Shown: positions 17,686 to 43,088 of the stretch, piece after piece | How positions within the stretch are numbered: the first letter of the stretch is position 1 | How the letters are laid out: each line of letters begins with the position of its first letter | Origin: Sphingomonas sp. LC-1 | GTDB lineage: Bacteria > Pseudomonadota > Alphaproteobacteria > Sphingomonadales > Sphingomonadaceae | Direction of reading: 5' to 3' | DNA: 64,000 nucleotides | NCBI RefSeq assembly: GCF_025371035.1 | Contig: NZ_JANZXB010000005.1 | Coordinates: 1-64,000, forward strand | Translations under genes and position numbers: made by a program | The notes under the pieces: model-generated | Database searches by the model: none | Told to the model about the DNA's origin: nothing | Seen by the model: the letters and a program-made list of their open reading frames with translations, nothing else

Positions 17686-17976
17686 GGCGACATCGTCGTC
17701 ATGGACAATCTTGGTAGTCACAAGGGCAAGGCCGCCTGCCCGCTCATCCGCTCCGTCTGCGCCAGTCTCCTGTTCCTGGCGCCCTACTCGCCCGACCTCA
17801 ACCCCATCGAGCAGGTCTTCGCAAAGCCCAAGACGCTGCTTCGCAAGGCGAATACCCGATCGGTCAAAACCACATGGAAGCAGATCGGTTCACTCCTCGA
17901 CGCCTTCCCTCCTCACGAATGCGGCAACTACCTCCAAAACAGCGGGTACGGTTCAGGCTGAATGGATCAGACTCTA
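17686..17976 (+). pseudogene. IS630-family transposase C-terminal remnant
   Basis: The frame reads GDIVVMDNLGSHKG, then LAPYSPDLNPIEQVF, the DDE_3 catalytic region of IS630 transposases, and ends at 17961. The N-terminal HTH half is missing. The sequence just after the stop, to the TA at 17975-17976, looks like the element's right end. It truncates the dnaE2 fragment on the other strand. Confidence 0.75.
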
Positions 17977-18208
17977 GATGTGGGCGAGGTCGCCGCAGCG
18001 GACGATGCCTCGCCGGGTGAGATCCCGCCGCAGGAAGGCGATCGGTTGCGCGCGTAGCGACAATTGCAGCGTGCGATCATCTTCCACCACTTCGCGGCCC
18101 TCGGTCAGCGGCCGCGATGATACATCGGGGTCAAGTTCGTCGGGACCGAACGACGCTTGTTGCGCATCGGTGGCGGCGAACAGGGGCAGGGCGGGCTCGT
18201 CCAAGCCC
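17974..18208 (-). pseudogene. dnaE2: Fragment of error-prone DNA polymerase gene dnaE2 (imuC)
   Basis: About 76 residues remain. The start DEPALPLFAATDAQ is followed by DELDPDVSSRPLTEGREVVED and LSLRAQPIAFLRRDLTRRGI, then VRCGDLA. This pattern is characteristic of the region before the OB fold of DnaE2/ImuC. The start of the protein is replaced by IS481 sequence at about 18208 and the end by the IS630 element at about 17975. DnaE2 is normally over 1,000 residues and works with ImuA/ImuB in damage-induced mutagenesis. Neither partner is in the window. Confidence 0.6.
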
Positions 18209-18454
18209 TAGCGTGTGCCGCCGGAACGCCACAACCATTGCCTCCTCGGCCTTGGACAGGGTTGTCGAATGAGGGGCCTTCGGCCCGGTCTTCAGATCCT
18301 TTACCGTCGCCCGTTTGCCCCACTTCGCCACGGTCTTGGAGTTGATCCCCAGCTCTCGGCTCAGCGTCGCGAGCGAAGCTTGGCGTGCTGTATTGCTGCT
18401 CGGAAGAGGTGCGTGATCGTGGCGCACCCATGACGAACCTATCCCATACGGCAT
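18209..18454 (-). pseudogene. IS481-family transposase N-terminal remnant
   Basis: From about 18454 the minus strand reads a WVRHDHAPLPSS segment, then LSRELGINSKTVAKWGKRAT, a TGPKAP motif and EEAMVVAFRRHTL. This is the HTH-bearing N-terminus of IS481-family transposases. The frame leaves the family directly after RRHTL and enters the dnaE2 fragment, so the catalytic core is deleted. Confidence 0.7.
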
Positions 18455-18682
18455 TCTACCATTGAACGAGCGAATCGCTCCGTTAAACCGTGTGCTCAAA
18501 CATCTGGTAGGAATGGTCGCCTGACGGCCGCGGCAGGGCAAAATCCCGGCGACCATGCGTCGCCGTTCCGCCGCCTCGAGGATGCGTTGCGGCTTGTCGT
18601 CGAACGAGTTTAGGCACGCTATTCATGACGGTTGTGAAACCTGCCATCATCGCCACTATGCGGGGAGAAGCGTGGAAGGAAA

Positions 18683-19666
18683 ATGGCCGTGAGTACGGAT
18701 CGATCGGTCGGAGGCAGGGGCGTGGTCAACGGATACGCCGAAGAGGCGCCGGTCCACCGGCTGAACCTCAACCTACTTTTTCCCCTCGATGCGATCCTGC
18801 ATGCGCCGACGCTGACCGAAGCGGGCCGGCGGGTCAGGCTGAGTCAGTCGGCGATGAGCCACGCGCTGCGCCGCTTGCGCGAGCATTTCGGCGACGATCT
18901 CGTGACCCATGCGGGCGGCGACCAGCAATTGACTCCGCTGGGGCTGGCCTTGCGCAGCGAAGTGCGTCGGGTGTTGCGCGATGTGGACGCAACATTCAAT
19001 TTCGCTCTGTCCTTCGATCCGCAGAACGGCGTAGGGACAATTACCGTCGCCACATCGGACGTCATCGAGCAGATGCTGCTAGGCCCCGTCGTCCAGCGTC
19101 TCATGAACGTCGCACCGGGCCTGACGGTTACGGTCATCCCGCTCGATGTCGCTAACCCACATCGTGCGTTGGACCAAGGTGCCGAGCTGTTGTTGCTGCC
19201 CGAGGACGTGGCATTGCCCGAATTCGAGACCTTGCCGATCTTGGCCGACCATGTGGGATGTTTGATCTGGACCGGCCATTCCGAACTTGCCGATCAGTTT
19301 TCGATCGATGAGGCACAGTATCGTGCGGCATGCCATGTCGTCACGCGGGACGAGCGAATGCCGGTCCCGGTCATGGACCGTAGTATGACCGAGTTGTTAC
19401 AAGCGCGCCGTATCGCCATGCGGACGAGCTCGCAGGCGACCTTGCCCGCTATCGTTATTGGCAGCGATTTGATCGCGACCGGCAGTACCTGGCTGTTCCA
19501 GCATTTCGCGTCGACGATGCCCGTCAGGGCCGTTACGGCACCTTTTCTGCGTGGAAAGGTCATGATCGTCGCTCAATGGGCCGCTCACCGGCGACGCGAT
19601 CCGATGCTGTCCTGGTTCGTCGAACAAATCGAGGCCTATGTCGCGCTATTCCCTGCGCGACATTAG
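18683..19666 (+). CDS. LysR-family regulator, NodD-like
   Basis: A 327-residue LysR protein. The HTH follows a short N-terminal extension (HRLNLNLLFPLDAILHAPTL, then SQSAMSHALRRLREHFGDDLV). That LNLL…LDALL-type start and the effector domain with WTGHSELAD are typical of the NodD/LinR/PcpR branch found near aromatic or xenobiotic genes. AAGGAAA directly precedes the ATG at 18683. It is co-oriented with the TonB receptor operon that begins about 285 bases downstream and is its nearest regulator. No direct evidence links them. Confidence 0.82.
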   Translation: MAVSTDRSVGGRGVVNGYAEEAPVHRLNLNLLFPLDAILHAPTLTEAGRRVRLSQSAMSHALRRLREHFGDDLVTHAGGDQQLTPLGLALRSEVRRVLRDVDATFNFALSFDPQNGVGTITVATSDVIEQMLLGPVVQRLMNVAPGLTVTVIPLDVANPHRALDQGAELLLLPEDVALPEFETLPILADHVGCLIWTGHSELADQFSIDEAQYRAACHVVTRDERMPVPVMDRSMTELLQARRIAMRTSSQATLPAIVIGSDLIATGSTWLFQHFASTMPVRAVTAPFLRGKVMIVAQWAAHRRRDPMLSWFVEQIEAYVALFPARH

Positions 19667-19951
19667 GATGCTGCCGGCATCGATAGCGTTCATGCCGGCC
19701 ATGAACATTTCGAATTTGCCTGTAACCTGATTGAAGCATAGCCTCTCTCGTGACGGAAAACTCCCGCTGACGCCTTGGCGTCAAGACTGGGAATGCCGTC
19801 AAGCAGGAGGACGGCCGCGATCGTAACCGATTGGGAAGCGATCGCTTTCTTCGCCGTAAGGCGAGTCCGTTTTTGTCTCAGGGTTTTCGGTCTGATCGGG
19901 TGTGCGGCGATGCCAGCGCACGAGATGACGCGCGCCCTTGGAGGGGGGATG

Positions 19952-22285
19952 ATGATGGTTGTTACGACTGTACATGCACGCGCTCTGTTGGGGGCGGCTA
20001 GCCTTGGTGTCCTGGCCGCGGCCGGCGTCGCCATGCCGGCGACCGCGTCTGCCCAGACTGCGAAGACGTCCCTAAACCTGCCGGCCATGCCTATGGCCGA
20101 GGCACTTCAGGCGATCGCGGCTCGAACGGGCGAGATGATCAATTATGACCCCGATGCGGTAAAAGACCTGACGTCGCGGCCCGTCCGCAGCGCCGGCAAC
20201 GCGCGCCGCGCGGTCCAGGCGGCGATCAACGGCACCAACCTGGCCATCGTCCCGGGCGCCAATGGCGGCTTGGTCGTCGTCAACGACATCGTCGTGACCG
20301 CTCAGCGCGACGAGGCGGAGACCAGCGTGCTGGTCCGCCAGTCGACCACATCCGACCGGAATGGCCTGGGTCTGCGCAATCAGCCGCGCAACACGCAGGT
20401 CATCACCGCCAAGACGATCGAGGAACAACAAGCGCTCACCGTGACCGACATCCTGCGCAATGCCGGCGGTGTTTCAGCACAGTTGAACAACCCCAATAGC
20501 GGGGCCACCTACACGATCCGCGGCTTTTACGCGAGCGGCCTGGTCAACGGGCTGGCGACCGCCGCGCAATATGGTGTCAACGCCGGTGCCGACCAGCCGG
20601 TCGCCAGTATTGAGCGGGTCGAAGTGCTGAAGGGACCTGATGCGCTGATTTCCGGGTTCGACAATCTCGGCGGCAACGTCAATGTGGTCACGAAGAAGCC
20701 GAGTGCCGAGCAACGGCTGGCCGTCGGTTTCGACACGGGCTCGTTCGGGCTCGCGCGCGGTGTGATCGATGCCAACAACGCGATCACTGCCGACAAGAAG
20801 CTGTCGGGGCGTGTCATCGCCAGCGCGCAGACGATGGACCATAATTATGGCGGCTATACCGGTGACAAGAACTGGCTGTTCGCGCCGTCGCTGCGGTACA
20901 AGGATCGCTTGACCGATATCGTGATCGGCGCCAGCATCAACAACGCCACCAGTGGCATTGGTGCCTTTACGATATTCGACAACAAAACGCGGCAGATCAT
21001 CGACCGCGATCCCTCGGTGCCGATCTACTCGCCCGACCAGGGAATCAGGATCACCACCAGTCGATTCTATTTCGATGCGACACAGCAAATCCTGCCGGGC
21101 ATTGAGATCGTCGCCCGTGGGATGCACGACCAGACCCAGCTGACGGTGCGTGCAGGTTCTTTCGCCTATACGCGTGCCGGCGCGCTAAGCGTGTATTTCG
21201 GGGGGTCGCAGCAAGATGGCGCGTCGAACGCCTTCGACAGCTTCATCCGTATCAAGACCCATATCGGCGATGCGCTGAAAGCGCGCTTCAACGTCGGCTA
21301 CAATTACAGCGATGGGACGGCCGAGCAGAGGTACGCGACGCAGGGTTCGACCGTCCCGAATCCGCCGCTGGTCGGGAATAAGAATGCACCGCTTCGTTGG
21401 TCGTCCATGGGGCCGGTTCAGGTCCTTACCCAAGGTAAGCAGGAAGGCATATACGGCCAAGCCCTGATCGAATTTTGGAAGCTCAAAATATTGGGCGGTG
21501 TCCGGAAGAATTGGTTCGAGACGAAGGGGCAGACATTTTTTGCGGGTCCTTCGCCGGTATCCGTACAGCGCAAACACGGAGTGTCACCGAGCGCCGGCAT
21601 CATCCTCGATGCCACAAAAGACCTGTCGATCTTCGCGAATTACGGGCGTGGCGAACAGGCCATCTTCAGTGTAGCCAAGGATGGCAGCATCCTGCCGAAC
21701 ATTATCACGACCAACAAGGAAGCGGGGATCAAGCTCGATCTCTTCCACAAGCACGCAACGATCAATGCTTCCTATTTCGACATTCAGCAGGACAATATCG
21801 TTGTTCGCGATCCCTCGGACCCGACAAATCTTTTTCCGGGGCCGGGCCAGCGTGGACGCGGCATCGACCTGAACATTGCCGGGCAGCTGCTACCGGGATG
21901 GACGGTGCTGGCCTCGTTGACGCGTACCAAATATGCGCTGTTGACGACGAACAATTTCCAGACCGTCGTCGCGAACCAGCCGCGTGATACGTACAGCGTC
22001 TATTCGACCTATCGCGCGAAAATTTCCGATGACGTCAGTGGCGGCGTATCGGGGGGGCTGTACGGACGCTCCAGTTCCTTCGCCAATGTTCTGGGACAAT
22101 ATGTCGTGCCGCCGTCGCGGCAGATCGATACGAATGCGTTCGTGAGCGTGCAGGGCTTCGACATTAATATTGGTATTCGCAACATTCTTGATCGGCGCAA
22201 TTATGGGTCGACCTCTGTCTTCTCATACGTGCCTGTCGGAGAGCCGCGCAGCGTGCGTCTCAGCATTTCCAAGCGCCTATACTGA
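19952..22285 (+). CDS. TonB-dependent receptor with N-terminal STN domain
   Basis: About 777 residues. After a signal peptide ending PATASAQ comes an STN (secretin/TonB N-terminal) domain of about 75 residues (LNLPAMPMAEALQAIAARTG…). It is followed by a plug with TVTDILRNAGGVSAQ, YTIRGFYASG and VEVLKGPDALISG, and a 22-strand barrel ending SVRLSISKRLY. This is the FhuE/FpvA siderophore-receptor type, but the ligand is not fixed by sequence. STN domains usually signal to an anti-sigma factor, yet no FecIR-like pair is nearby. GGAGG at 19940-19944 favours one of three tandem ATGs (19949/19952/19955). It starts a six-gene unit. Confidence 0.9.
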   Translation: MMVVTTVHARALLGAASLGVLAAAGVAMPATASAQTAKTSLNLPAMPMAEALQAIAARTGEMINYDPDAVKDLTSRPVRSAGNARRAVQAAINGTNLAIVPGANGGLVVVNDIVVTAQRDEAETSVLVRQSTTSDRNGLGLRNQPRNTQVITAKTIEEQQALTVTDILRNAGGVSAQLNNPNSGATYTIRGFYASGLVNGLATAAQYGVNAGADQPVASIERVEVLKGPDALISGFDNLGGNVNVVTKKPSAEQRLAVGFDTGSFGLARGVIDANNAITADKKLSGRVIASAQTMDHNYGGYTGDKNWLFAPSLRYKDRLTDIVIGASINNATSGIGAFTIFDNKTRQIIDRDPSVPIYSPDQGIRITTSRFYFDATQQILPGIEIVARGMHDQTQLTVRAGSFAYTRAGALSVYFGGSQQDGASNAFDSFIRIKTHIGDALKARFNVGYNYSDGTAEQRYATQGSTVPNPPLVGNKNAPLRWSSMGPVQVLTQGKQEGIYGQALIEFWKLKILGGVRKNWFETKGQTFFAGPSPVSVQRKHGVSPSAGIILDATKDLSIFANYGRGEQAIFSVAKDGSILPNIITTNKEAGIKLDLFHKHATINASYFDIQQDNIVVRDPSDPTNLFPGPGQRGRGIDLNIAGQLLPGWTVLASLTRTKYALLTTNNFQTVVANQPRDTYSVYSTYRAKISDDVSGGVSGGLYGRSSSFANVLGQYVVPPSRQIDTNAFVSVQGFDINIGIRNILDRRNYGSTSVFSYVPVGEPRSVRLSISKRLY

Positions 22286-22302
22286 TTGGGTTACGCCGAC
22301 CA

Positions 22303-24105
22303 ATGATGCCACCCCCTGCCAATGTCGAGGAGACCCGCCGCGAAGCGGGTCTCCAGCCTGCCCAACCCGCCCGCGAACGCTGGGCCCATGCCTGGCGGAT
22401 CAGTAAGCGCTATTTCGTGTCCGACGACTGGAAATGGGCATGGTTCCTGGTCGCGTGCTATTGCGTGATCGAAATCGGCACGACCTATGCATTTTTCTGG
22501 TCCAACCAATGGCAGCGCCAATTCTACGATGCGATCGAGCAGCGGCAGGCGGCCAAGTTCATCTCGCTGGTCGTGATGTTCCTGATGATCGCGGCCCTGG
22601 CGGTGGCAACCGACTTTGCGCATAGCATCGTCAACTGGGCGCTGTCGATGCGGTGGCGCTCATGGCTGAACGAGTGGTATCTCGGCCGCTGGTTCGCACG
22701 CGACCGTTTTTACGAGATCGAACGGCTCCGCATGATCGACAACCCCGATCAGCGTATCGCCGAGGACATACGGTCCTTCACTTCGATCGGCCTGCATTAT
22801 GGCACGTCGCCGTTCGCCATCGGAATCGCGGTGATTTTCAGCACCGTGCGGGCGGTCGTATTTGCCACGATCCTCCTGCAGACATCTACTCCCATTGCCA
22901 TTCCACTGTTCGGCTATCGGATTCCATTGCCCGGCGGCGACCTGATCTGGTTCTCGATCGCATATGTCATTTTCGGCACGGTTTTCGTCGCCTGGATTGG
23001 CAAGCCGTTCATCCGCCGCAAGATGCGCGAGCAACATTATGAGGCCGATTACCGCGGTGCTTTGTTGCACGTCCGGCGTAACGGCGAGCAGATCGCCTTT
23101 GCGGGTGCACAGGCGACCGAACGCGACGGCTTGCGGATCGTCTTCGCCAATATCCGGCGCAACTGGTATCAACTGATGTTCGCCTCTGCCGGGTTGAGCG
23201 CAGGGCAGAATATCTATCAGCGCGTCATGACGGTCGTTCCACTGTTCCTGACTGTACCAAGATATTTTGCCGGGGCGATCACCTTTGGGCAGGTCCAAGC
23301 CGCACGAGATGCCTTCACGGTTTTTTCGTCGAATCTATCCTATATCGTGACCGCCTATCCTTCGATCGCGGGGCAGATTGCCAATATCAACCGCCTGAAG
23401 GCGTTGGACGATGCGATCGACTATGAGCGTCCGCGTGGCATCGCCTTCATTCCCGGCGGCACGCCCGAAGGTGTCGCGATCAGTGCGACCGGCCTGATGC
23501 TTCGTCGGCCCAATGGCGAGCCGCTAATGGAGGTGTCCGACTGGACGATCCGCGATGGCGAGCGCTGGGTGATCGAGGGGCCATCGGGTGCGGGCAAGAC
23601 CACGCTGCTCCGCGCCATCGCCGGGCTCTGGCCGGATGGGGCAGGGCAGGTGGCGATGACGAAGCGGGGCACGGCTATGCTGGTGCCACAGCGGCTGTAC
23701 CTGCCGCTTGGCACGCTCAAGAGCGCCATCTGCTTTCCCGATCGTGTCGAGGATCACGACGACGCAACCATTGCCATGTTGATGGAGCGGGTCCGTCTCG
23801 ATGCCCATGTCGATGCCATGCACGAACTGCGCATGTGGCAGGACGAGCTGTCGCCCGGCGAGCAGCAGCGCGTGGCGCTGGCCCGCATCCTTCTCCAGCG
23901 CCCCAGCCTGCTGGTGCTGGACGAGGCGACTAGCGCGCTCGACGCCGACAATGCAGCGCATTTCTATCAATCCGTGCTGGATGCGATGCCGGAGGCGACC
24001 ATCGTCAGCGTCGTCCATAATGAGAAGCTGACGCCCTATCACACGCATCGCCTGACCCTGCATCACGGCCATGCGCATCTTTCGCGGCTTGGAGACGCGA
24101 TATGA
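22303..24105 (+). CDS. SbmA/BacA-like ABC transporter (fused permease-ATPase)
   Basis: A 600-residue ABC_membrane_2-type half transporter. Six or so membrane segments lie in residues 45-370 (for example WAWFLVACYCVIEIGTTYAF), with an AEDIRSFTS cytoplasmic helix typical of SbmA/BacA/YddA. The ATPase follows: Walker A GPSGAGKTT (about 426), signature LSPGEQQR (about 516), Walker B LLVLDEATSALD (about 537). Relatives import peptides, bleomycin or cobalamin (SbmA, Rv1819c). It starts 17 bases after the receptor and overlaps the tldE-like gene by four bases, so it probably moves the receptor's ligand across the inner membrane. Confidence 0.9.
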   Translation: MMPPPANVEETRREAGLQPAQPARERWAHAWRISKRYFVSDDWKWAWFLVACYCVIEIGTTYAFFWSNQWQRQFYDAIEQRQAAKFISLVVMFLMIAALAVATDFAHSIVNWALSMRWRSWLNEWYLGRWFARDRFYEIERLRMIDNPDQRIAEDIRSFTSIGLHYGTSPFAIGIAVIFSTVRAVVFATILLQTSTPIAIPLFGYRIPLPGGDLIWFSIAYVIFGTVFVAWIGKPFIRRKMREQHYEADYRGALLHVRRNGEQIAFAGAQATERDGLRIVFANIRRNWYQLMFASAGLSAGQNIYQRVMTVVPLFLTVPRYFAGAITFGQVQAARDAFTVFSSNLSYIVTAYPSIAGQIANINRLKALDDAIDYERPRGIAFIPGGTPEGVAISATGLMLRRPNGEPLMEVSDWTIRDGERWVIEGPSGAGKTTLLRAIAGLWPDGAGQVAMTKRGTAMLVPQRLYLPLGTLKSAICFPDRVEDHDDATIAMLMERVRLDAHVDAMHELRMWQDELSPGEQQRVALARILLQRPSLLVLDEATSALDADNAAHFYQSVLDAMPEATIVSVVHNEKLTPYHTHRLTLHHGHAHLSRLGDAI

Positions 24106-25451
24106 CCATGCTTTTGACGCATGGCGAGACGGCCCTGCGCGAGGCGGCGCAATGTGCGGTGGAACTGGCAGCCAATCGCGGCGCGCGGGCTCGCGTCTCG
24201 GTCCATCATGAGGGGATCGCCAGGGCCACGATGCGCGGCGGCGAGGTGGAGACCGCGGAGCGCAGCGGCAGCCAAGGCCTGGGGCTGACCGTCTTTCATG
24301 AGGGGCGGCGCGGATCGGCGTCGACCGCGGGGTTCGACCGGGCGGCGATCGAACGGGTAGTGGAGGAGGCGATGCTGATTGCCCGCCATGTCCAGCCCGA
24401 TCCCGATGCGGACATGCCCCCTGCCGATGAACTGGCCTTTTCGGGCCCCGCGCCGCTGGTCTATGCTGACAGCGCGCGCAGCCCCGAAGCGATGCTCGAG
24501 GCGGCCAGCGCGCTGGATCGGACCTCCGCCGGGATTGCGGCTTCGGACAGCCGCCTGCGCGCCGGCGAATCCGTCGCGTTGGCGACCGAAGGGCTCTGGG
24601 CGTTGGCGACCAGCGACGGGTTCTGCCGCAGCGTGATGCGCTCCAACGACACGCGCTGGACGGTCATGCTGGCGCAGGATGAGGGCGGTAGCACGTCGGA
24701 TTTCTGCCAGTCGCAGGAACGGCGGGTGGATGCCCTGTTGTCCGACCAGCAACTGGCGACGATAGCTGCCGGTCGCGCCCGCAGCGCACTCGGTGCCCGT
24801 GCGATCGACAGTCGCCGCTGCGCGGTGCTGTTCGAGCCGCGCACGGCCGCGACCTTGGTCGGCGAACTCGCGGGCGCGCTGACCGGCGCGGCGCAGTATC
24901 GCCGGATGAGTTTCCTGCCCGATCCGATCGGGCGCCGCGTGGCCGCTCCCCACCTGAGCTTGCGCGAAGACCCGTTCGAGCCGCTGGGGCTCGCCAGCGG
25001 TGGCTTCGATAGCGAGGGGATTGCCGGATCGTCGCGCGCGATCCTGCAGGCGGGCGTGGCTGAAGGGCTGTTCCTGTCGAGCTTTACGGCCCGCAAACTG
25101 GGCATGGCGTCGACCGGCAACGCCGATGGCTATTATAATCTGCAACTGAGGAGCACCGCCGACAGCGGCGATTGGAAGGCGATGCTGCAAATGCTGGGCA
25201 CCGGCCTGGTCGTCACCCAGTTTCAGGGCGGCAAGACCGATCCCGTCAGCGGCAACTGGACGCAGGCGGTGCGGGGCCTCTGGGTCGAGGGCGGGGAGAT
25301 CGTCCATGCCGTCACCGATGTGACGCTGGCCGGGACCATGACGGCGATGCTGACTGGCATCCGTGCGGTCGGCCGGGATGTCGAGCGGATGGGCGCGTTC
25401 CGTACCGGCTCGATCCTGATCGACGACATGCAAGTGGGAGGCAAGGCATGA
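24102..25451 (+). CDS. pmbA: TldE/PmbA-family protein
   Basis: A 449-residue protein of the TldD/PmbA family. The N-terminal two-layer domain contains TAERSGSQGLGLTVFHEGRRGSAS and the C-terminal domain contains RAVLFEPRTAATLVGELAG-like, KLGMASTGNADG and GGKTDPVSGNWTQAVRG segments. It has no HExxxH motif, as expected for TldE, the non-catalytic partner in the TldDE heterodimeric metalloprotease. TldDE is known from microcin B17 leader removal and degradation of unfolded peptides. It is coupled by ATGA overlaps to the transporter before it and to tldD after it. Confidence 0.9.
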   Translation: MTMLLTHGETALREAAQCAVELAANRGARARVSVHHEGIARATMRGGEVETAERSGSQGLGLTVFHEGRRGSASTAGFDRAAIERVVEEAMLIARHVQPDPDADMPPADELAFSGPAPLVYADSARSPEAMLEAASALDRTSAGIAASDSRLRAGESVALATEGLWALATSDGFCRSVMRSNDTRWTVMLAQDEGGSTSDFCQSQERRVDALLSDQQLATIAAGRARSALGARAIDSRRCAVLFEPRTAATLVGELAGALTGAAQYRRMSFLPDPIGRRVAAPHLSLREDPFEPLGLASGGFDSEGIAGSSRAILQAGVAEGLFLSSFTARKLGMASTGNADGYYNLQLRSTADSGDWKAMLQMLGTGLVVTQFQGGKTDPVSGNWTQAVRGLWVEGGEIVHAVTDVTLAGTMTAMLTGIRAVGRDVERMGAFRTGSILIDDMQVGGKA

Positions 25452-26908
25452 ACGGCGGCGAAACGGCGATCGACCGCGCGTGCGCGCGACTGCTCGGCCC
25501 ATCGGGACTGGACGAGGCCGCGATCGGCCGCGCGCTGGGCGAGTTGGCCGGGGGCGGCGCGGATCTGGCCGATCTGTATTTCGAGGCGACCAGCACGCGC
25601 AACTGGCAGCTGGAAAATGGGCGCGTCACCCAGGGCAGCTTCGTCACACGACAGGGTGTGGGCGCGCGTGCGGCGCATGGCGGCCGGGTCAGCTTCGCCC
25701 ATTCCGCCGATGTCAGGGAAAATGCCCTGCTCGATACGGTGCGGGCGGTGCGCACTTTGGAACGGCGCGGCGACGCGGGACGGCATCCGCAGGGTATCGC
25801 GCTGAGCCGGCGGGCGAGCGGTCATGATCTTTATCCCGCGACCGATCCGGTCGCGGTCGAGGACGCGATCGCCTGGATCACGATCCTGACGCGGATCGAT
25901 GAGTTGGCCCGCTCACACGATCCGCGCGTCGCGCAAGTCAACGCCAATGTCCGCTTGACCGATAGCACGATCCTGGTGGCCGAGGCCGATGGCCTGTTGG
26001 CGGGCGATGTGCGGCCGATGGCGATCCTGTCGGTGGTCGTGATCGCTGAGCAGAACGGTCGCCGTGCGCGAGGGCAGGCGGGGCTTGGGCGGCGGGGTGG
26101 TGTGACGGTGTTCGGCGATGCCGAAATCGGCACGATGGTCGCAACCGCCGTCCATATGGCGCTCAACAATCTCGATGCGATCGCCGCACCGGTCGGTGAG
26201 ATGCCGGTCGTATTGGGGCCGGGCTATCCCGGCGTACTGTTCCATGAGGCGGTGGGCCATGGCCTGGAAGGCGATCACCACCGCAAGCATCTGTCCGCCT
26301 TTGACGGCAAGGTCGGCGAGCGGATCGCGGTCCCCGGCGTGACCGTCATCGACGATGGCGGGATCGCGGGGCGGTTGGGGTCGCTGGGCATCGACGACGA
26401 GGGCACCGCGCCCGATCGTACCGTGCTGGTCGAGGACGGGGTGCTGACCGGGCTGATGCAGGATCGGCTGAACGCCGGGCTTATGAACGCACGGTCGACC
26501 GGCAATGGCCGTCGCCAATCCTATGCGCACCTGCCGATGCCGCGCATGACCAACACCTTCCTCGCCAACGGGCGGGCGAACCCGGCGGACATCATCGCAT
26601 CGATCGATCGCGGCATCTACGCCACCGAGTTTGACGGCGGCCAAGTCGATATCGTTACCGGCCGCTTCAACTTCACCACCATCGAGGCATGGCTGGTCGA
26701 AAAGGGGCGACTGGTCGCCCCGGTGCGCGGCGCGACGCTGATCGGTGTCGGGCATGAGGCGCTGCGCCACATCTCGATGATCGGCAACGATCTGGCGCTC
26801 GACACCGGCATGGCGACCTGCGGCAAGCAGGGCCAGTCGCTGCACGTCAGCGTCGGTCAACCCACGCTGCGCATCGACCGCATGATGGTCGGCGGACAGG
26901 CCGGCTGA
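25448..26908 (+). CDS. tldD: TldD-family metalloprotease subunit
   Basis: A 486-residue TldD protein. The catalytic motif is HEAVGHGLEGD (about residues 266-276), giving the two zinc-ligand histidines and the general base, and the third ligand is probably the Cys in MATCGKQGQS (about 458). It has VTVIDDGG, MQDRLNAGLMN and the FTTIEAWLVEKGRLVAPVRGATLIG region seen in the family. TldD threads unfolded or modified peptides into a closed chamber. The adjacent TldE completes the enzyme. Its placement after a TonB receptor and SbmA-like transporter suggests it processes an imported peptide rather than serving as the housekeeping copy. Confidence 0.92.
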   Translation: MNGGETAIDRACARLLGPSGLDEAAIGRALGELAGGGADLADLYFEATSTRNWQLENGRVTQGSFVTRQGVGARAAHGGRVSFAHSADVRENALLDTVRAVRTLERRGDAGRHPQGIALSRRASGHDLYPATDPVAVEDAIAWITILTRIDELARSHDPRVAQVNANVRLTDSTILVAEADGLLAGDVRPMAILSVVVIAEQNGRRARGQAGLGRRGGVTVFGDAEIGTMVATAVHMALNNLDAIAAPVGEMPVVLGPGYPGVLFHEAVGHGLEGDHHRKHLSAFDGKVGERIAVPGVTVIDDGGIAGRLGSLGIDDEGTAPDRTVLVEDGVLTGLMQDRLNAGLMNARSTGNGRRQSYAHLPMPRMTNTFLANGRANPADIIASIDRGIYATEFDGGQVDIVTGRFNFTTIEAWLVEKGRLVAPVRGATLIGVGHEALRHISMIGNDLALDTGMATCGKQGQSLHVSVGQPTLRIDRMMVGGQAG

Positions 26909-26936
26909 ACCCCATTTTTATAAGAGGACAAGTATC

Positions 26937-27260
26937 ATGCGTAACGCGACCGAGCAGGATTTCGACGAGATCGTCATGAAGAACGACAAGCCGGTGCTGG
27001 TCGACTTCTGGGCCCCCTGGTGCGCACCGTGCAAGGCGCTGGCTCCCACGCTGGACGAGCTGGCGGAGGAGTATGCCGACGAGATGGAGATCGTGAAGGT
27101 CGATATCGAGGCCAACCCCAAGCTCGCCGAGCGTTTCCAGGTGCGCGGCGTCCCGCTGTTGATGATCGTCAAGGAAGGTGTCGAGACTGCGCGCACCTTC
27201 GGCACCGTCTCGCGCAGCCGCCTCGACGCCTTTGTCGATGCGCATGTCGGGGCGGAATGA
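26937..27260 (+). CDS. Thioredoxin
   Basis: A 107-residue thioredoxin with the active site W28-C-A-P-C32 (FWAPWCAPCKALAP) and the cis-proline in VRGVPLLM. There is no signal peptide, so it is cytoplasmic. It lies 28 bases after tldD with AAGAGGA upstream, and its stop overlaps the start of the next gene. It is more acidic and divergent than housekeeping TrxA. A role in reducing disulfides of imported peptides before TldDE cleavage is plausible but inferred from context. A thioredoxin-reductase stump lies one gene downstream. Confidence 0.92.
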   Translation: MRNATEQDFDEIVMKNDKPVLVDFWAPWCAPCKALAPTLDELAEEYADEMEIVKVDIEANPKLAERFQVRGVPLLMIVKEGVETARTFGTVSRSRLDAFVDAHVGAE

Positions 27261-28147
27261 TGGCGGCTATCGCATTCCATGGTGACCCGGCAGTCAAGGC
27301 ACAGGCGCTGGAGCGCCTGCGGCGACATATCCAGGCCGGCAGCTTCGTCTATTTCCCGGCGTGGGAAGACGGCAAGGCCAATGCCATCGGCGCAGTGGTC
27401 GAGGCGGACGATACGTCGGCTTATGCCGAACGACTGGGCTATCCGATCGCGCTGGTCGAGACGCTGCCGATACTCATCAACGGCTTCCGCCCGCTCGGCG
27501 AAGCGGCGGCTTTTGCCGATGCTTGGCTGGAGCGGACGCCCGTCGGCGCCGACTTGTCGACCGTCGTCTCCCATTTGATCCTGCAACTGCTGGACGAGCC
27601 CAGCCTGTCGGCGATAACTACCCGCCATCCGGCGATGGAGGAAGCCCGCCAAGCGATCCGGGCCCTTCACCGGCGCGTCATCGATGGCGACCAACCCGAT
27701 CGAAAGGAGTGGAAGGCGGCTCGGCTCGCGGCGGTCGCCGCGACTGATGCCTTGGGCGAGGGTTCCATGGATGGGCGGGCCGGCGGGATTGTGGAATCGG
27801 CAGCCTGGCCGGGCACGATGCGTACGGTCCTGCGCGACACGCTGAGCGCCAGCGGCGCGCTGAAGCTGTACCTCTCGCTGGCCGAAATGGGCTGGACGCC
27901 CGAGGAAGAGAGCCGCGTCTTCCATATCCGCGAACAGGCGCAGAAGGACGGCTACAAGGCGGAGTATGAGGGGATCGAGCGGGTCTATGCAATCCTCGAC
28001 GCCGATCATCCCGAACTGGCCAGTCGCTTTCGAATGCGTTGCGAACGGATGGAGCAATCGGCCGCGACCTATGTCGTGGCAGGCTGGAAGGCGATCGCGA
28101 TCCTCGAGGCCGCACCGATCCTGACGGCCCAAGCCGTTGAGGCATAA
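27257..28147 (+). CDS. Uncharacterised protein at the end of the TldDE operon
   Basis: A 296-residue soluble protein starting MMAAIAFHGDPAVKAQALER; I do not recognise its family. It has no signal peptide, membrane segment or obvious catalytic motif. Recurring features are aromatic and acidic residues in the first 60 positions (SFVYFPAWEDGKANAIG), a helical middle part with HPAMEEARQAIRALHRR, and a helical end rich in Arg/Glu/Ala. Only one Cys is present (RMRCERM). The start overlaps the thioredoxin stop by four bases, so it belongs to the same unit. It may be an accessory factor specific to this system. Confidence 0.75.
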   Translation: MMAAIAFHGDPAVKAQALERLRRHIQAGSFVYFPAWEDGKANAIGAVVEADDTSAYAERLGYPIALVETLPILINGFRPLGEAAAFADAWLERTPVGADLSTVVSHLILQLLDEPSLSAITTRHPAMEEARQAIRALHRRVIDGDQPDRKEWKAARLAAVAATDALGEGSMDGRAGGIVESAAWPGTMRTVLRDTLSASGALKLYLSLAEMGWTPEEESRVFHIREQAQKDGYKAEYEGIERVYAILDADHPELASRFRMRCERMEQSAATYVVAGWKAIAILEAAPILTAQAVEA

Positions 28148-28169
28148 GTTTCAGCGGGCGAAGGACAGT

Positions 28170-28241
28170 AAGGTCGTCGACATCAGCTCTGGCCCGGCGG
28201 GCTATACGGCGGGCGTCTATGCCGCCCGCGCCGGGCTGCCG
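28170..28241 (+). pseudogene. trxB: Thioredoxin reductase (trxB) N-terminal stump
   Basis: The frame just after the unknown protein reads KVVDISSGPAGYTAGVYAAR and then AGLP. This is the FAD-binding GxGPAG-type start of thioredoxin reductase, with the first Gly of the motif replaced by Ser. After about 24 residues the similarity stops and IS1182 debris follows about 240 bases on. The stump is in the same orientation as the thioredoxin operon, so the operon once carried its own reductase. Confidence 0.6.
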
Positions 28242-38967: not shown

Positions 38968-41004
38968 TCAGATGCGGATGCTGAGCCCCAGCCGCACATC
39001 GCGACCGGCGAGCGGGGCATAATCCTTCAGGAAGCTGGCATGGCGGCGCGCGACCACGTCGAACAGGTTGCTGGCGCTGAGCGTCAGGCGCAGATCGCGG
39101 TTCGGCAGCGGCGTCCAGTCGGCGCTCAGGTTGACAAGTGAGAAGGCGGGGGTCGTGGTCTCGGACCCGGTCACGCGGCTCTGCCGGGTGCTGTGTTCGA
39201 CCTCGGCGCGCAGGCCGAGCCGATGGCCGCGTCCCTCGATCCCGCCCAGCAGGCGCAGTGGTGGAATGCGCGGGGCGGGGCCGAATCCGTCGATCGTCGA
39301 TCGTACCGCATCCAACAGACCGTCCACTTTGACCATCAGGCCTGGGCGATCGACGAAGCGCGCCTCGCCCTCCACCTCGAACCCACTATAAGTGGCGTCG
39401 CCCTGTGCGAAGCGGAACACCGGCAGGTCGTCGATCACCTGGCCCGTCTCGAACTCATAGATATAGCCCGAAAAGCGCGTACGATAGGCCGACGCATCGA
39501 GCCGCCAGCGGGCACCGGACAGGCGCGCGACCAGCTCGACCCCGCGCGCGCGTTCGATGCCGAAGCTGCGATCGCCGATCTCATAGGATTGGGTGCCGAT
39601 ATGGGCGCCGTCGGCCAGCAGTTCCTCGGCAGCGGGGGCGCGGGCGGTGCTCGACAGGTTCAGCCCCAGCTTCACCCCCGGCGTGACCGTCGCGAACGCA
39701 CCGCCCGCAACCGACGTGGCGGTGAAGCGGCGGTCGAACCCGGCGGCCTGCGAACGGATGCCGGTCCATTCGATGCGCCCGCCGCCCTCGAAGCGGACGG
39801 GACCGATGGCGACCTCCTGCAGGGTGAAGACCCCGTTCTGCGTCGTCTCGTTGGGCGGCACGAACGCCTCGGAGCCCACGGCGCGGAAATCGCGGATGAA
39901 GGTCTGGACGCCGCTGACCCCCTGCCATTTTCCGTGGGACCGCTGGCGCAATTCCGCGCGCGCCTCGATGCCCGTGTTGGCGAAGGTGGTGCCGGTGACG
40001 GGATCGCCCTCGAAATGGACATAGTCCGCATAGCCCGCGCGCAGCGACAGACGTTCGAAGAAGCCGGGCAGCACCACAGACGCGCGCAGGTCGGCCCGCC
40101 ACTGCTCCGCCTTGATCCGCACCGCTTCCTGCTCAGCGCCGGGCGTCAGATCGTAGCGGATCGGCAGGCCATAATCGGTTTCGTAGCGCGTGATCGCAGC
40201 GCCGAGATCGCCGCCGGTATCGATGAAGGCCGCGCCGAGATGGGCAGTGCGGGTGCGTGCGCTGGTGTTGGCGAGACGACCCGACAGGTCGGCGAGACCA
40301 CGGATCGCGGGATCACTGCTGGCGCGGGCCTGGGCGCGCAGGCGATCGGACAGTACCGGGCCGCCGACGCGCAGATCGCCGGTGTCGGTCAGGCTGCCGC
40401 CGCCCGCCACCACGATGCGGTCGGACACGCGCAGGCCGATATTGGTACCGGCGGAGCGTTCGTCGGCGGCCGATCCCAGCGATCCGCGCGCCTGCACCGC
40501 GACCGGCGCATCGGGGACGGCTGTGGGGACGCGGCGGTCGAGCACGTTGACGACGCCGCCGATCGCCGATGATCCGAAGCGCAGCGATGCGGGGCCGCGC
40601 AACACCTCGATCCGTTCGGACAGCAGCGGGTCGATCGCCACGGCATGGTCGGCCGAGGTGTTCGAGACGTCGAACGCGCCGATCCCGTCGGTCAGTACCC
40701 GCACCCGCTCCCCGGCCAGGCCACGCAGGATCGGCCGCGCGGCATTGGGGCCGAAGCTGGTCGACGATACCCCCGGCAGCCGCGTCAGCGCCTCGCCGAT
40801 CTGCGGGCGCAACGAACGGTCGAGCGCCGCGCCCGTCAGAACCGACACCGGCGATGCGGAGTCGCGGGGATCGCGTTGGAAGACGCCGGTGACGACGATC
40901 TCGTCTTGGTCGTCGCTTTCGGCAGCCGGTGGATCCTCGGCGGCCAGCACCGGGGCGGGCAGGGCGGCCAGTGCCGCGCCGGCAAGCAGCCCACGAAACG
41001 TCAT
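38968..41004 (-). CDS. TonB-dependent receptor, ZnuD-like
   Basis: A 678-residue receptor with signal MTFRGLLAGAALAALPAPVLA, DEIVVTG TonB box and plug motifs LPGVSSTSFGPNAARPILRG, RVLTDGIGAFDVSNTSADHAV, VEVLRGPASLRFGSSAIGGVVNVLD. The barrel ends DVRLGLSIRI. The SSTSFGPNASRPIIRG-like and SPDHAV-like plug pattern belongs to the group that includes the zinc receptor ZnuD. It overlaps the peptidase gene by ATGA and is the last gene of an operon beginning with a COG0523 GTPase, which supports a zinc role. Heme or another metal complex remains possible. Confidence 0.88.
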   Translation of the reverse strand: MTFRGLLAGAALAALPAPVLAAEDPPAAESDDQDEIVVTGVFQRDPRDSASPVSVLTGAALDRSLRPQIGEALTRLPGVSSTSFGPNAARPILRGLAGERVRVLTDGIGAFDVSNTSADHAVAIDPLLSERIEVLRGPASLRFGSSAIGGVVNVLDRRVPTAVPDAPVAVQARGSLGSAADERSAGTNIGLRVSDRIVVAGGGSLTDTGDLRVGGPVLSDRLRAQARASSDPAIRGLADLSGRLANTSARTRTAHLGAAFIDTGGDLGAAITRYETDYGLPIRYDLTPGAEQEAVRIKAEQWRADLRASVVLPGFFERLSLRAGYADYVHFEGDPVTGTTFANTGIEARAELRQRSHGKWQGVSGVQTFIRDFRAVGSEAFVPPNETTQNGVFTLQEVAIGPVRFEGGGRIEWTGIRSQAAGFDRRFTATSVAGGAFATVTPGVKLGLNLSSTARAPAAEELLADGAHIGTQSYEIGDRSFGIERARGVELVARLSGARWRLDASAYRTRFSGYIYEFETGQVIDDLPVFRFAQGDATYSGFEVEGEARFVDRPGLMVKVDGLLDAVRSTIDGFGPAPRIPPLRLLGGIEGRGHRLGLRAEVEHSTRQSRVTGSETTTPAFSLVNLSADWTPLPNRDLRLTLSASNLFDVVARRHASFLKDYAPLAGRDVRLGLSIRI

Positions 41005-43088
41005 GCCAGCCCCCGGTTGCGCAGCAATGCCCCGGCGTCGGGCATCCGCCCCCGGAAGGCGACATAGCTTTCCGCCGGATCGCGGGAGTTGCCGCGCGAC
41101 AGCACCTCGTTCCGCAGCTTCTTCGCCAGGACCGGATTGAATACGTCGCCCGTCTCCTCGAACGCGGCAAAGCCATCGGCGTCGAGCACTTCGGCCCAGG
41201 TATAGGCGTAATAGCCCGCCGAATAACCGCCATCGAAGATATGGCTGAAGTGCGGCAGCCGATGCCGCATCCCGACCGCGTGCGGCACGCCCAGATCGGC
41301 GAGTTGCGCCTTTTCCCAGGCCAGTGCATCGAAATCGGCGGGAAGCGCGTCCAGCGAATGCAGCCGCATGTCGAGGATGGCCGACGATAGCTGCTGCACG
41401 GTCAGATAGCCCTGGTTGAAGGTGCGCGCCTCCAGCAGCGAAGCGAGCATCGCCTCCGGCATAGGCTGGCCAGCGGCATTGCGGGCATGGGCGCGCAGGA
41501 TCGTCGGATCACTGGCCCAATGTTCATGCACCTGCGACGGGAATTCGACAAAATCGCGCGTGACCGCCGTTCCCGACAGACTGGGATAGCGGACCTTGCT
41601 GAACAGGCCGTGCAACCCGTGGCCAAATTCGTGGAACAGCGTCTCTGCATCGTCGAGGCTGATGAGCGCGCGCTCGCCGGGCGCCGGGGGCGTATAATTG
41701 CAATTGTTGACGACGATCGCCTGCTGCCCGAGCAGGCTGTTCTGGTCGCGCAGCGAGTTCATCCAGGCACCGGGACGCTTGGTCGGGCGGGCGAACCAGT
41801 CGGCATAGAATAGTCCGATCGGCGCGCCGTTGTCCTCGCGAACCTCCCACACCTTCACGCCATCGGCATAGACCGGCACGTCGGCGCGGGGCGCGAACTG
41901 GATGCCGTACAAGCGCTTCGTCGTGTCCATCAGCGCGGCGACCATACCGTCGAGCGGGAAATACTGCTTCGCCGCCCCCTCATCGAGATTATAGCGCCGT
42001 TGGCGTTCCTTCTCGGCATAGAAGCGCCAATCCCATGGCTCGATCCGCGTCACGCCATCGGCGCTGGCGAGTTTGAGCAGCGCCGCTTCCTCCTCCTGCG
42101 CACGAGCGAGCGCCGGGCGATAGACGCGCATCAGCAGGTCGGTCGCGGCCTCCGGCGTCTTGGCCATCGCATCCTGCAACACGAAGGCGGCATGGCTGGG
42201 CGCTCCCATCAATTTGGCACGCTCGATGCGCAACTCGACCAGTCGCCGGATGATCGCGGCGGTGTTGTTCTCGTTCGCATTCGCACCGCGATTGTCGAAA
42301 GCCGCGAACACCTTGGCCCGCGCGCCACGGTCGGTCGCGACTGTCAGGAAGGGTTCGACCGCCGAGCGAGTGGCCGGGATCAGATAGCCCGTCTTTCCCT
42401 CGGCCCTGGCCGCCGTCTCCGCCGCCGCCTTTTGATCGGCGGGCAGGCCGGCGACCTCCGCCGCGGTCAGCAGCACGCTGCTCGCCTTCTGGTCGGCCAA
42501 CAGCTTCTGGCCGAACTGGACGCCGAGCTTCGCCATTTCCTCGTTGATCGCGGCGACCCGGGCACGGGCGGCCGGGGGCAGGGCGGCCCCGGCGCGGACA
42601 TAGCGCCGGTGTGTTTCCTCCAGCAGTCGCAATTGTTCCGGATCGAGGCCGAGTGAAGCGCGGTCCTGATACAGCCGGTCGACACGGGCGAACATCGCCG
42701 GGTCGAGCGAGGTCTCGTTCGAGAAGCGGGTCAGTTCCGGTACGACCGCTTCCTCGACCGCCTGGATGTCAGGCGTCGCATCGGCGGAGGCGACGTTGAA
42801 GAAGGCCGACGACACCCGCGCCAACTGCTGGCCCGAGCGCTCCATCGCCTCGATCGTGTTGGCGAAGGTCGGCGCCGAGCGGCCAGCGGTGATCGCGCGG
42901 AAATCCGCCCGCGCCGCCTTCAGCGCGGCGTCGAACGCCGGGCGATAATGCGCCGGACGGATTGCCCGATAGGGCGGGATTCCGTCGGGCCAGTCTCCGA
43001 GTAGGGGGTTGGCCGGTTCGGTCGCGCGTAGCGGGGTGTTGAGCAAAGGCAGCATAGCTGCGGACATTAACAGGGTACGGCGGTGCAT
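41001..43088 (-). CDS. dcp: M3-family zinc peptidase (peptidyl-dipeptidase Dcp-like)
   Basis: A 695-residue thimet-family peptidase. It has a likely exported N-terminus (MHRRTLLMSAAMLPLLNTPLRA), the FANTIEAMERSG start domain, the zinc motif HEFGHGLHG (about residues 485-493) and the downstream VEFPSQVHEHWA and FSHIFDGGYSAGYYAYTWAEV segments that shape the M3 cleft. Dcp removes C-terminal dipeptides. The ATG at 43088 is preceded by AAAGGA. Being inside a putative zinc-acquisition operon is unusual: it could free zinc from peptides or proteins outside the cytoplasm, or simply be a co-regulated zinc enzyme. Confidence 0.9.
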   Translation of the reverse strand: MHRRTLLMSAAMLPLLNTPLRATEPANPLLGDWPDGIPPYRAIRPAHYRPAFDAALKAARADFRAITAGRSAPTFANTIEAMERSGQQLARVSSAFFNVASADATPDIQAVEEAVVPELTRFSNETSLDPAMFARVDRLYQDRASLGLDPEQLRLLEETHRRYVRAGAALPPAARARVAAINEEMAKLGVQFGQKLLADQKASSVLLTAAEVAGLPADQKAAAETAARAEGKTGYLIPATRSAVEPFLTVATDRGARAKVFAAFDNRGANANENNTAAIIRRLVELRIERAKLMGAPSHAAFVLQDAMAKTPEAATDLLMRVYRPALARAQEEEAALLKLASADGVTRIEPWDWRFYAEKERQRRYNLDEGAAKQYFPLDGMVAALMDTTKRLYGIQFAPRADVPVYADGVKVWEVREDNGAPIGLFYADWFARPTKRPGAWMNSLRDQNSLLGQQAIVVNNCNYTPPAPGERALISLDDAETLFHEFGHGLHGLFSKVRYPSLSGTAVTRDFVEFPSQVHEHWASDPTILRAHARNAAGQPMPEAMLASLLEARTFNQGYLTVQQLSSAILDMRLHSLDALPADFDALAWEKAQLADLGVPHAVGMRHRLPHFSHIFDGGYSAGYYAYTWAEVLDADGFAAFEETGDVFNPVLAKKLRNEVLSRGNSRDPAESYVAFRGRMPDAGALLRNRGLA

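Follow-up and report, generated by a model that had tools for sequence, protein, structure and literature searches.

Positions 18,683 to 28,241 of a 64,000-nucleotide stretch of Sphingomonas sp. LC-1 (contig NZ_JANZXB010000005.1, positions 1 to 64,000 of the forward strand; hereafter the window) harbor an operon that combines a TonB-dependent receptor, an ATP-binding cassette (ABC) transporter, two subunits of the TldD/E family, a thioredoxin, and an orphan protein termed UNK. The operon breaks off within a thioredoxin reductase gene (trxB). The locus comprises the following features:

18683..19666, plus strand: LysR-type regulator (PF00126 and PF03466, above cut-off)
19689..19705, strandless: inverted repeat TTCAT-N7-ATGAA, a candidate operator between the LysR and receptor genes
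19949..22285 (start possibly 19952), plus strand: TonB-dependent receptor with a signal sequence and an N-terminal extension (PF07715, PF00593)
22303..24105, plus strand: fused permease-ATPase ABC transporter of the BclA/Rv1819c/ABCD type (PF06472, 147 bits; PF00005, 78 bits)
24102..25451, plus strand: TldE/PmbA-like subunit (PF19289, PF01523)
25448..26908, plus strand: TldD-like metalloprotease subunit (PF19289, PF19290, PF01523; HEAVGH and C-terminal Cys motif)
26937..27260, plus strand: thioredoxin with a WCAPC active site (TIGR01068, 112.8 bits against a cut-off of 96.8)
27257..28147 (start 27257 or 27260), plus strand: UNK, an orphan 295-residue protein of no known family and putative thioredoxin partner
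28158..28241, plus strand: trxB stump (tblastn, 70% identity, E 2e-7)

The six genes from the receptor to UNK are tightly packed. Gaps of 17 and 28 bases separate the receptor from the ABC gene and TldD from the thioredoxin, respectively, and the ABC/TldE and TldE/TldD junctions are ATGA overlaps. An in-frame ATG at 27257 provides UNK with a third such overlap, with the thioredoxin gene. These coordinates were re-derived and agree with those of an earlier note on this DNA, which had listed the same six plus-strand genes, gaps, overlaps, and trxB stump. The genes have no internal stops, and their ratio of nonsynonymous to synonymous substitution rates (dN/dS) lies between 0.09 and 0.26 in all 18 pairwise comparisons (the six window genes against loci L031, L026, and L033). 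Since this low dN/dS is accompanied by a gene order kept in 13/13 close loci, the operon is beyond chance.

UNK served as the query for finding related loci and is therefore present in all 24 loci compared below by construction. The search returned 11 named loci in genome contigs and 56 plasmid records, 51 of them from Burkholderia; UNK is present in 8 of 397 genomes of the family, the window's own counted. Thirteen distinct loci are close to one another (the window, L018, and L026 to L036), and in each the receptor, ABC, TldE, TldD, thioredoxin, and UNK genes follow in this order. TrxB comes next in 10 of the 13 (the window stump left uncounted), an M3 oligopeptidase lies downstream in 11, and a CysK/Cds1-like gene in nine. 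A LysR gene precedes the receptor in 11, the exceptions being L018 and L030; that of L026 is split by the gene caller. The six-gene operon of the earlier note thus describes the window and is too short for most close relatives, where trxB, the M3 peptidase, and the Cds1-like gene extend it. One of the 13 loci is carried by Niveispirillum irakense (Azospirillaceae, another family), hinting at a transfer from one lineage to another. Large plasmids carry two of the named copies from close relatives.

In the window, the TrxB remnant at 28158-28238 aligns to residues 15-41 of a 337-residue TrxB, the DNA ceases to resemble L031, L026, and L014 at 28242, and the trxB, M3, and Cds1 genes are gone from the locus. 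The window copy is a truncated version of a longer conserved operon. In Sphingomonas parapaucimobilis YK209 (L014, 14875-15870), trxB is called as two open reading frames (ORFs) and is missing from the record's gene table, unlike the whole trxB of strain NBRC 15100 (L026).

Beyond the close loci, 11 more (L016, L017, L020-L024, L045, L046, L047, and L050) complete a set of 24 spanning Alphaproteobacteria and other Pseudomonadota. Kept out of it are loci that share a species or genome with L026, L032, and L036 (L014, L015/L025, and L019), a receptor and UNK pair (L048, genome G561), a phage-like locus (L049, genome G767), a weak match with stops (G419), 50 further Burkholderia plasmid records, and a second Paraburkholderia record. 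The receptor, ABC, and thioredoxin genes adjoin UNK in 24/24 loci; the co-conservation beyond this strain that the earlier note had expected holds for the full order among close relatives and for this core elsewhere. A peptidase is found at 23 of the 24 loci and its type changes (TldDE, M3, S9, M1, or M16). TldD and TldE occur together at 19; the five loci without them are L021, L022, and L023, which carry M3, L045, which carries S9, and L017, which has no adjacent peptidase. TldDE as an essential part of the system was rejected on account of its absence beside these five. A cysteine-breaking enzyme is present at 14 loci, Cds1-like at 13 and, at L016, a downstream class V aminotransferase reading as cysteine desulfurase, together with an M1 aminopeptidase. 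Six loci (L016, L017, L045, L046, L047, and L050) include TonB-ExbB-ExbD genes, and in the Burkholderia glumae record the sulfur-use genes sfnG and msuE come directly after the system copy. Some named carriers are plant-derived (Chinese cabbage, Mimosa, rice). At the phylum level, UNK has a match in 8 of 398 genomes, five of which, the window's own included, hold the full set, the other three being G561, G767, and G419.

M16-family genes were also observed upstream of the receptor in L021 (5438-8143) and L022 (6477-7652); M16 is the family of HrrP and SapA, which degrade nodule-specific cysteine-rich (NCR) peptides.

The receptor scores 174.1 bits on the siderophore receptor model TIGR01783, under its cut-off of 223.5; PF07715 and PF00593 identify it as a TonB-dependent receptor. 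Among solved chains, it comes closest to the receptors for ferric alcaligin and ferripyoverdine. The transporter fuses a permease (PF06472 and PF05992) to an ATPase (PF00005, ABC_tran domain at residues 413-544), an architecture that points to the BclA type (an SbmA-fold permease with an ATPase); peptide import is suggested by this family. The earlier note had called the protein an SbmA-like transporter: the SbmA-fold part stands, and the ATPase domain led to the rejection of a plain, ATPase-free SbmA/BacA importer. The nearest solved chain is 6tqe (E 1.4e-64), which we take to be Rv1819c, and the solved relatives include the lysosomal cobalamin transporter ABCD4.

Transporters of this kind are more widespread than the system. 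Used as a query under strict limits, the system transporter has a match in 53 of 289 class and 82 of 398 phylum genomes. Control stretches were drawn around such matches, 40 in the class (covering the 42 top-scoring of 66 matches outside the window's own genome) and 20 around the best non-alphaproteobacterial phylum matches outside the system genomes, G695 being passed over. The 40 class stretches contain no relatives of the receptor, UNK, TldDE, M3, or Cds1 genes, a thioredoxin in one and Lrp in two, and the 20 others no other part of the system; some stretches are short, ended by contig edges, and receptors or peptidases unlike the references could be missed in them. The five best phylum matches (779-925 bits) come from the five full-system genomes, the next scoring 687 bits, a gap that is partly circular because system ABCs built the query alignment (15 of the 25 in alignment A3, among them four of these five). 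In trees, a branch separates the 25 system ABCs from 42 other ABCs (Shimodaira-Hasegawa approximate likelihood ratio test, 100), and the 25 are also split from 41 others in a wider set (98). These trees are quick ones without bootstrap; the wider one omits half of the alphaproteobacterial controls, and L023 and L024 form long branches in it.

The window TldD scores 501.5 bits on NF008006 (cut-off 513) and the TldE 261.1 bits on NF008268 (cut-off 438), which leaves both outside the E. coli TldD and PmbA equivalogs. The metal ligands of TldD (HEAVGH and the C-terminal Cys) and the adjacent TldE gene are those of a TldD/TldE heterodimer, and the HExxGH and Cys motif is kept in 35/35 TldD rows, housekeeping rows and one duplicate counted in. 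A separate housekeeping tldDE, which the earlier note had proposed looking for, does exist: besides the adjacent operon pair, the window's genome has a tldD on contig C12 and a tldE on C23, and in 17 further genomes at least two TldD/E-family genes per genome lie apart from each other and away from the UNK locus. Four genomes with an UNK locus devoid of TldDE (G036, G318, G614, and G561) have just two TldD/E-family genes each, and G395 possesses an extra adjacent pair away from its UNK locus. The 18 operon TldE rows are set apart from 17 housekeeping rows by a branch in 91% of 200 bootstrap trees, the support of the operon TldE clade being weak (89/59). In a TldD tree without L094 (the same gene as L050) and L014, 15 alphaproteobacterial operon rows form a 100/100 group and the four non-alphaproteobacterial operon rows fall outside it. 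A second adjacent TldD/E-family pair is also found in Sphingomonas hankookensis (G778, C8:794036-796122), besides that of L029.

The gene after the window TldD encodes a thioredoxin by its TIGR01068 score and its CAPC motif, and CxxC is present in all 15 thioredoxins examined, drawn from 13 of the 24 loci. UNK, in turn, has no family match in Pfam or NCBIfam at E 0.01 or in PHROGs at E 0.1, and its single match among PDB sequences is at chance level (E 1.2). It is fused to thioredoxin in L016, L017, L046, L047, and L050 (the UNK part of L050 being the weakest, E 1.1e-4); in L045 its fusion partner is an S9 prolyl oligopeptidase. Among 16 diverse sequences the only invariant residues are F6, W35, G60, P62, G96, and W151. 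As neither a conserved cysteine nor a catalytic set is kept among them, an adaptor or binding protein would fit better than a redox or hydrolytic enzyme. The receptor and UNK pair of G561 suggests that UNK may deal with the ligand of the receptor. This pair occupies L048 8597-12536, in a 20-kb stretch in which the system transporter, thioredoxin, and peptidase were not found. In L049 (7124-7783, minus strand, G767), an UNK-like protein of 220 residues has weak relatives in Xanthomonas phages; these weak phage and plasmid matches point to no function.

The genes lost from the window locus were analyzed in relatives. In L026, TrxB is above its cut-off (386.9 against 343.45 bits) and the M3 protein is nearest to oligopeptidase A (679.8 bits, cut-off 927). 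On the Cds1 model (NF052478), the pyridoxal 5'-phosphate (PLP) enzymes of L026 and L024 reach 542 and 545 bits, against 81-155 on cysteine synthase models, and Cds1 is probably their family, by far the best of those scored for both enzymes tested; other Cds1-like genes were assigned through 59-98% identity to one of the family. Cds1 (Rv3684) of Mycobacterium tuberculosis produces hydrogen sulfide (PMC8389258). The closest Cds1-like and M3 genes in the genome of the window are neighbors at C47:1798-5509 (L059), beside a divergent Lrp gene (53%, 54-55%, and 61% identity). This Lrp-Cds1-M3 group is possibly a stand-alone unit for the breakdown of cysteine-containing peptides. Another M3-family peptidase gene occurs within the window (41004-43010, minus strand), its product sharing 34% identity with the M3 peptidase of the L026 operon.

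The dyad TTCAT-N7-ATGAA has one match in the window, where 0.06 are expected, and 6 of 100 shuffles have one. It precedes the receptor in exact form (spacer 5-8) in 6 of the 13 close loci and in near-exact form in L028, the same test finding none in the other six; well-conserved bases follow it in a nine-locus alignment. The dyad at 19689-19705 is a candidate operator. Across the 24 loci the regulator is of the LysR or Lrp type or an extracytoplasmic function (ECF) sigma factor with FecR. Pfam identifies an ECF sigma factor and FecR in L023 and an ECF sigma factor only in L024; the pairs of L016, L046, L047, and L050 resemble sigma and FecR as judged from sequence starts.

Upstream of the LysR gene, a minus-strand ORF (18131-18556) resembles a transposase fragment, presumably IS481-like, and a 236-base segment starting at position 17974 is 81% similar to part of L034.

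On balance, we lean slightly towards reading the operon as a truncated copy of a conserved route for the import and dismantling of disulfide-bonded (cysteine-rich) peptides, with the ligand and every biochemical step inferred from the gene content, order, conservation, motifs, fusions, and tree groupings described above. A sequence of import, opening, cutting, and disposal is proposed because the thioredoxin lies beside TldDE, with a transporter before them and a cysteine desulfhydrase after. The receptor would bring the peptide across the outer membrane and the ATP-driven BclA-type transporter across the inner membrane, as their families suggest. Thioredoxin, recharged by thioredoxin reductase, would open the disulfides, and UNK may act as a non-catalytic adaptor holding the peptide for thioredoxin and the peptidase, a role to which its fusions and its lack of conserved catalytic residues point. 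The opened chain would enter TldD/E or the M3 oligopeptidase and be cut into short pieces, and the Cds1-type enzyme would convert the released cysteine into sulfide. In the window strain, housekeeping enzymes or the Lrp-Cds1-M3 group on C47 may replace the missing last three steps.

Published work bears on these steps. TldD/E is believed to admit only unfolded chains as substrates (PMC5810440), and NCR peptides are described as resisting the peptidase HrrP as long as they are disulfide-bonded, BacA import being thought to deliver them for destruction (PMC8175422). BclA proteins require ATP hydrolysis and can import NCR-type peptides (PMC12003926). The wider evidence favors the import, reduction, and cutting of a peptide-like compound already suggested in the earlier note, its SbmA-like importer being replaced by the fused ATP-driven type; neither of the two conditions under which that note would have been refuted was observed. 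Salvage of sulfur and nitrogen, or removal of a harmful peptide, is more likely than peptide production. No enzyme of ribosomally synthesized and post-translationally modified peptide (RiPP) modification was detected among the proteins scanned, short precursor ORFs being outside the search. Siderophore-peptide salvage and the disarming of a RiPP antibiotic, both also considered in the earlier note, are less probable; the trxB, M3, and cysteine desulfhydrase genes of the relatives point to cysteine-rich peptides and speak against a thiazole/oxazole RiPP. A bolder version, tentative and on the whole unlikely, would make the system a self-contained, horizontally shared machine that takes disulfide-bonded peptides (for instance, cysteine-rich defence peptides of plant or microbial origin) all the way from the cell surface to free sulfide, and in which UNK would found a new family of adaptors that present the substrate and couple thioredoxin to a peptidase.

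Several observations weigh against the import-and-dismantling route. The nearest named relatives of the receptor are siderophore receptors, and next to some loci lie genes for an ECF sigma factor and FecR, as is typical for metallophore receptors. TldDE is missing from 5 of the 24 loci, a Cds1-like gene from 11 (L016 among them), and B. glumae L017 has no peptidase next door; the two Cds1 scores fall under the curated cut-off of 600. G561 has the receptor and UNK without the rest, and the UNK-like protein of G767 lies in a phage-like stretch. The system is rare in the family (8/397), and the window copy may work only in part, since its trxB, M3, and Cds1 genes are lost.

The highest-rated rival, owing to the resemblance of the receptor to siderophore receptors, is that the operon takes up a peptide metallophore (a siderophore or a chalkophore resembling methanobactin) and unloads it by reduction. 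The metal-peptide complex would enter through the receptor and the ABC transporter, thioredoxin and its reductase would free the metal or open a disulfide, and the peptidases and Cds1 would clear the emptied peptide. The sigma/FecR pairs named above accord with such a role, which is nonetheless unlikely: the cysteine-breaking enzyme and the exchangeable peptidases point to catabolism, no metal-handling gene was named among the proteins scanned (no search being aimed at such genes), and a Fur-like box, sought with a strict consensus pattern, has 0 matches in the window at 3 mismatches or fewer. Less probable again is pure protection, whereby an antimicrobial peptide (a plant cysteine-rich defence peptide or a RiPP antibiotic) would be imported and destroyed with no nutritional role. 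The plant-derived carriers would suit it; BclA-type transporters are thought to shield rhizobia by moving NCR peptides inside (PMC12003926), and a reducing cytoplasm favors the destruction of these peptides (PMC8175422). Its sporadic presence in the family speaks against it, and a cysteine desulfhydrase matches a catabolic role equally well or better. That the imported compound is hydrophilic and not a peptide (cobalamin-like), TldDE and thioredoxin serving envelope or stress proteins instead, could draw on 6tqe and ABCD4 among the solved relatives of the transporter and is very improbable, as it leaves the changing peptidases, the UNK-peptidase fusion, and the cysteine-breaking enzyme unexplained. 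That the genes form a loose cluster without shared function, as the cut trxB of the window and the varying gene sets elsewhere might insinuate, hardly deserves credence in view of the constant core in 24/24 UNK-found loci, the fusions, the low dN/dS, and the 60 stretches around other ABCs that have no such core.

The fate of cysteine-rich peptides after their presumably protective import by BacA or BclA is known only in part. Should the import-and-dismantling route be correct, a single operon would make the whole path from receptor to cysteine breakdown testable in one strain, TldDE would have a definite group of substrates beyond its part in microcin maturation, and an uncharacterized thioredoxin-partner family would be added. 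No description of the assembled gene set was found among the titles and abstract starts listed by searches of open-access literature, which is not proof of novelty.

Among known systems, the closest in logic is that of rhizobia, where BacA/BclA import of disulfide peptides through the inner membrane, followed by cytoplasmic reduction and proteolysis by HrrP or SapA, has been proposed (PMC8175422, PMC12003926). HrrP and SapA are M16 peptidases, unlike the TldDE of the window operon. To our knowledge, the rhizobial BacA/BclA, HrrP, and SapA genes are unlinked, and no dedicated receptor, thioredoxin, UNK, and cysteine desulfhydrase are united with them in one operon. Microcin J25 uptake by the TonB pathway and SbmA, a subject named in the reference list of PMC12003926, has in common with the operon a TonB-dependent step combined with an SbmA-fold transporter for a small peptide. 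It differs in that SbmA is proton-driven and devoid of an ATPase and, as far as we know, has no linked degradation genes; the outer-membrane step of this uptake involves FhuA. With E. coli TldD/E, which acts on unfolded chains (PMC5810440), the operon shares the heterodimer, with HExxxH and Cys in TldD. The operon copies differ in being additional adjacent pairs, with the TldE branch apart (weak support) and TldD partly so. The terminal PLP enzyme found in the relatives fits the Cds1 (Rv3684) family best, scores under its cut-off, and is absent from the window locus. Rv1819c and ABCD4 likewise fuse a permease to an ATPase, are among the nearest solved relatives, and have no linked receptor, thioredoxin, or peptidase that we know of. 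The parts are known from these systems; the assembled line, and UNK within it, appear to be new.

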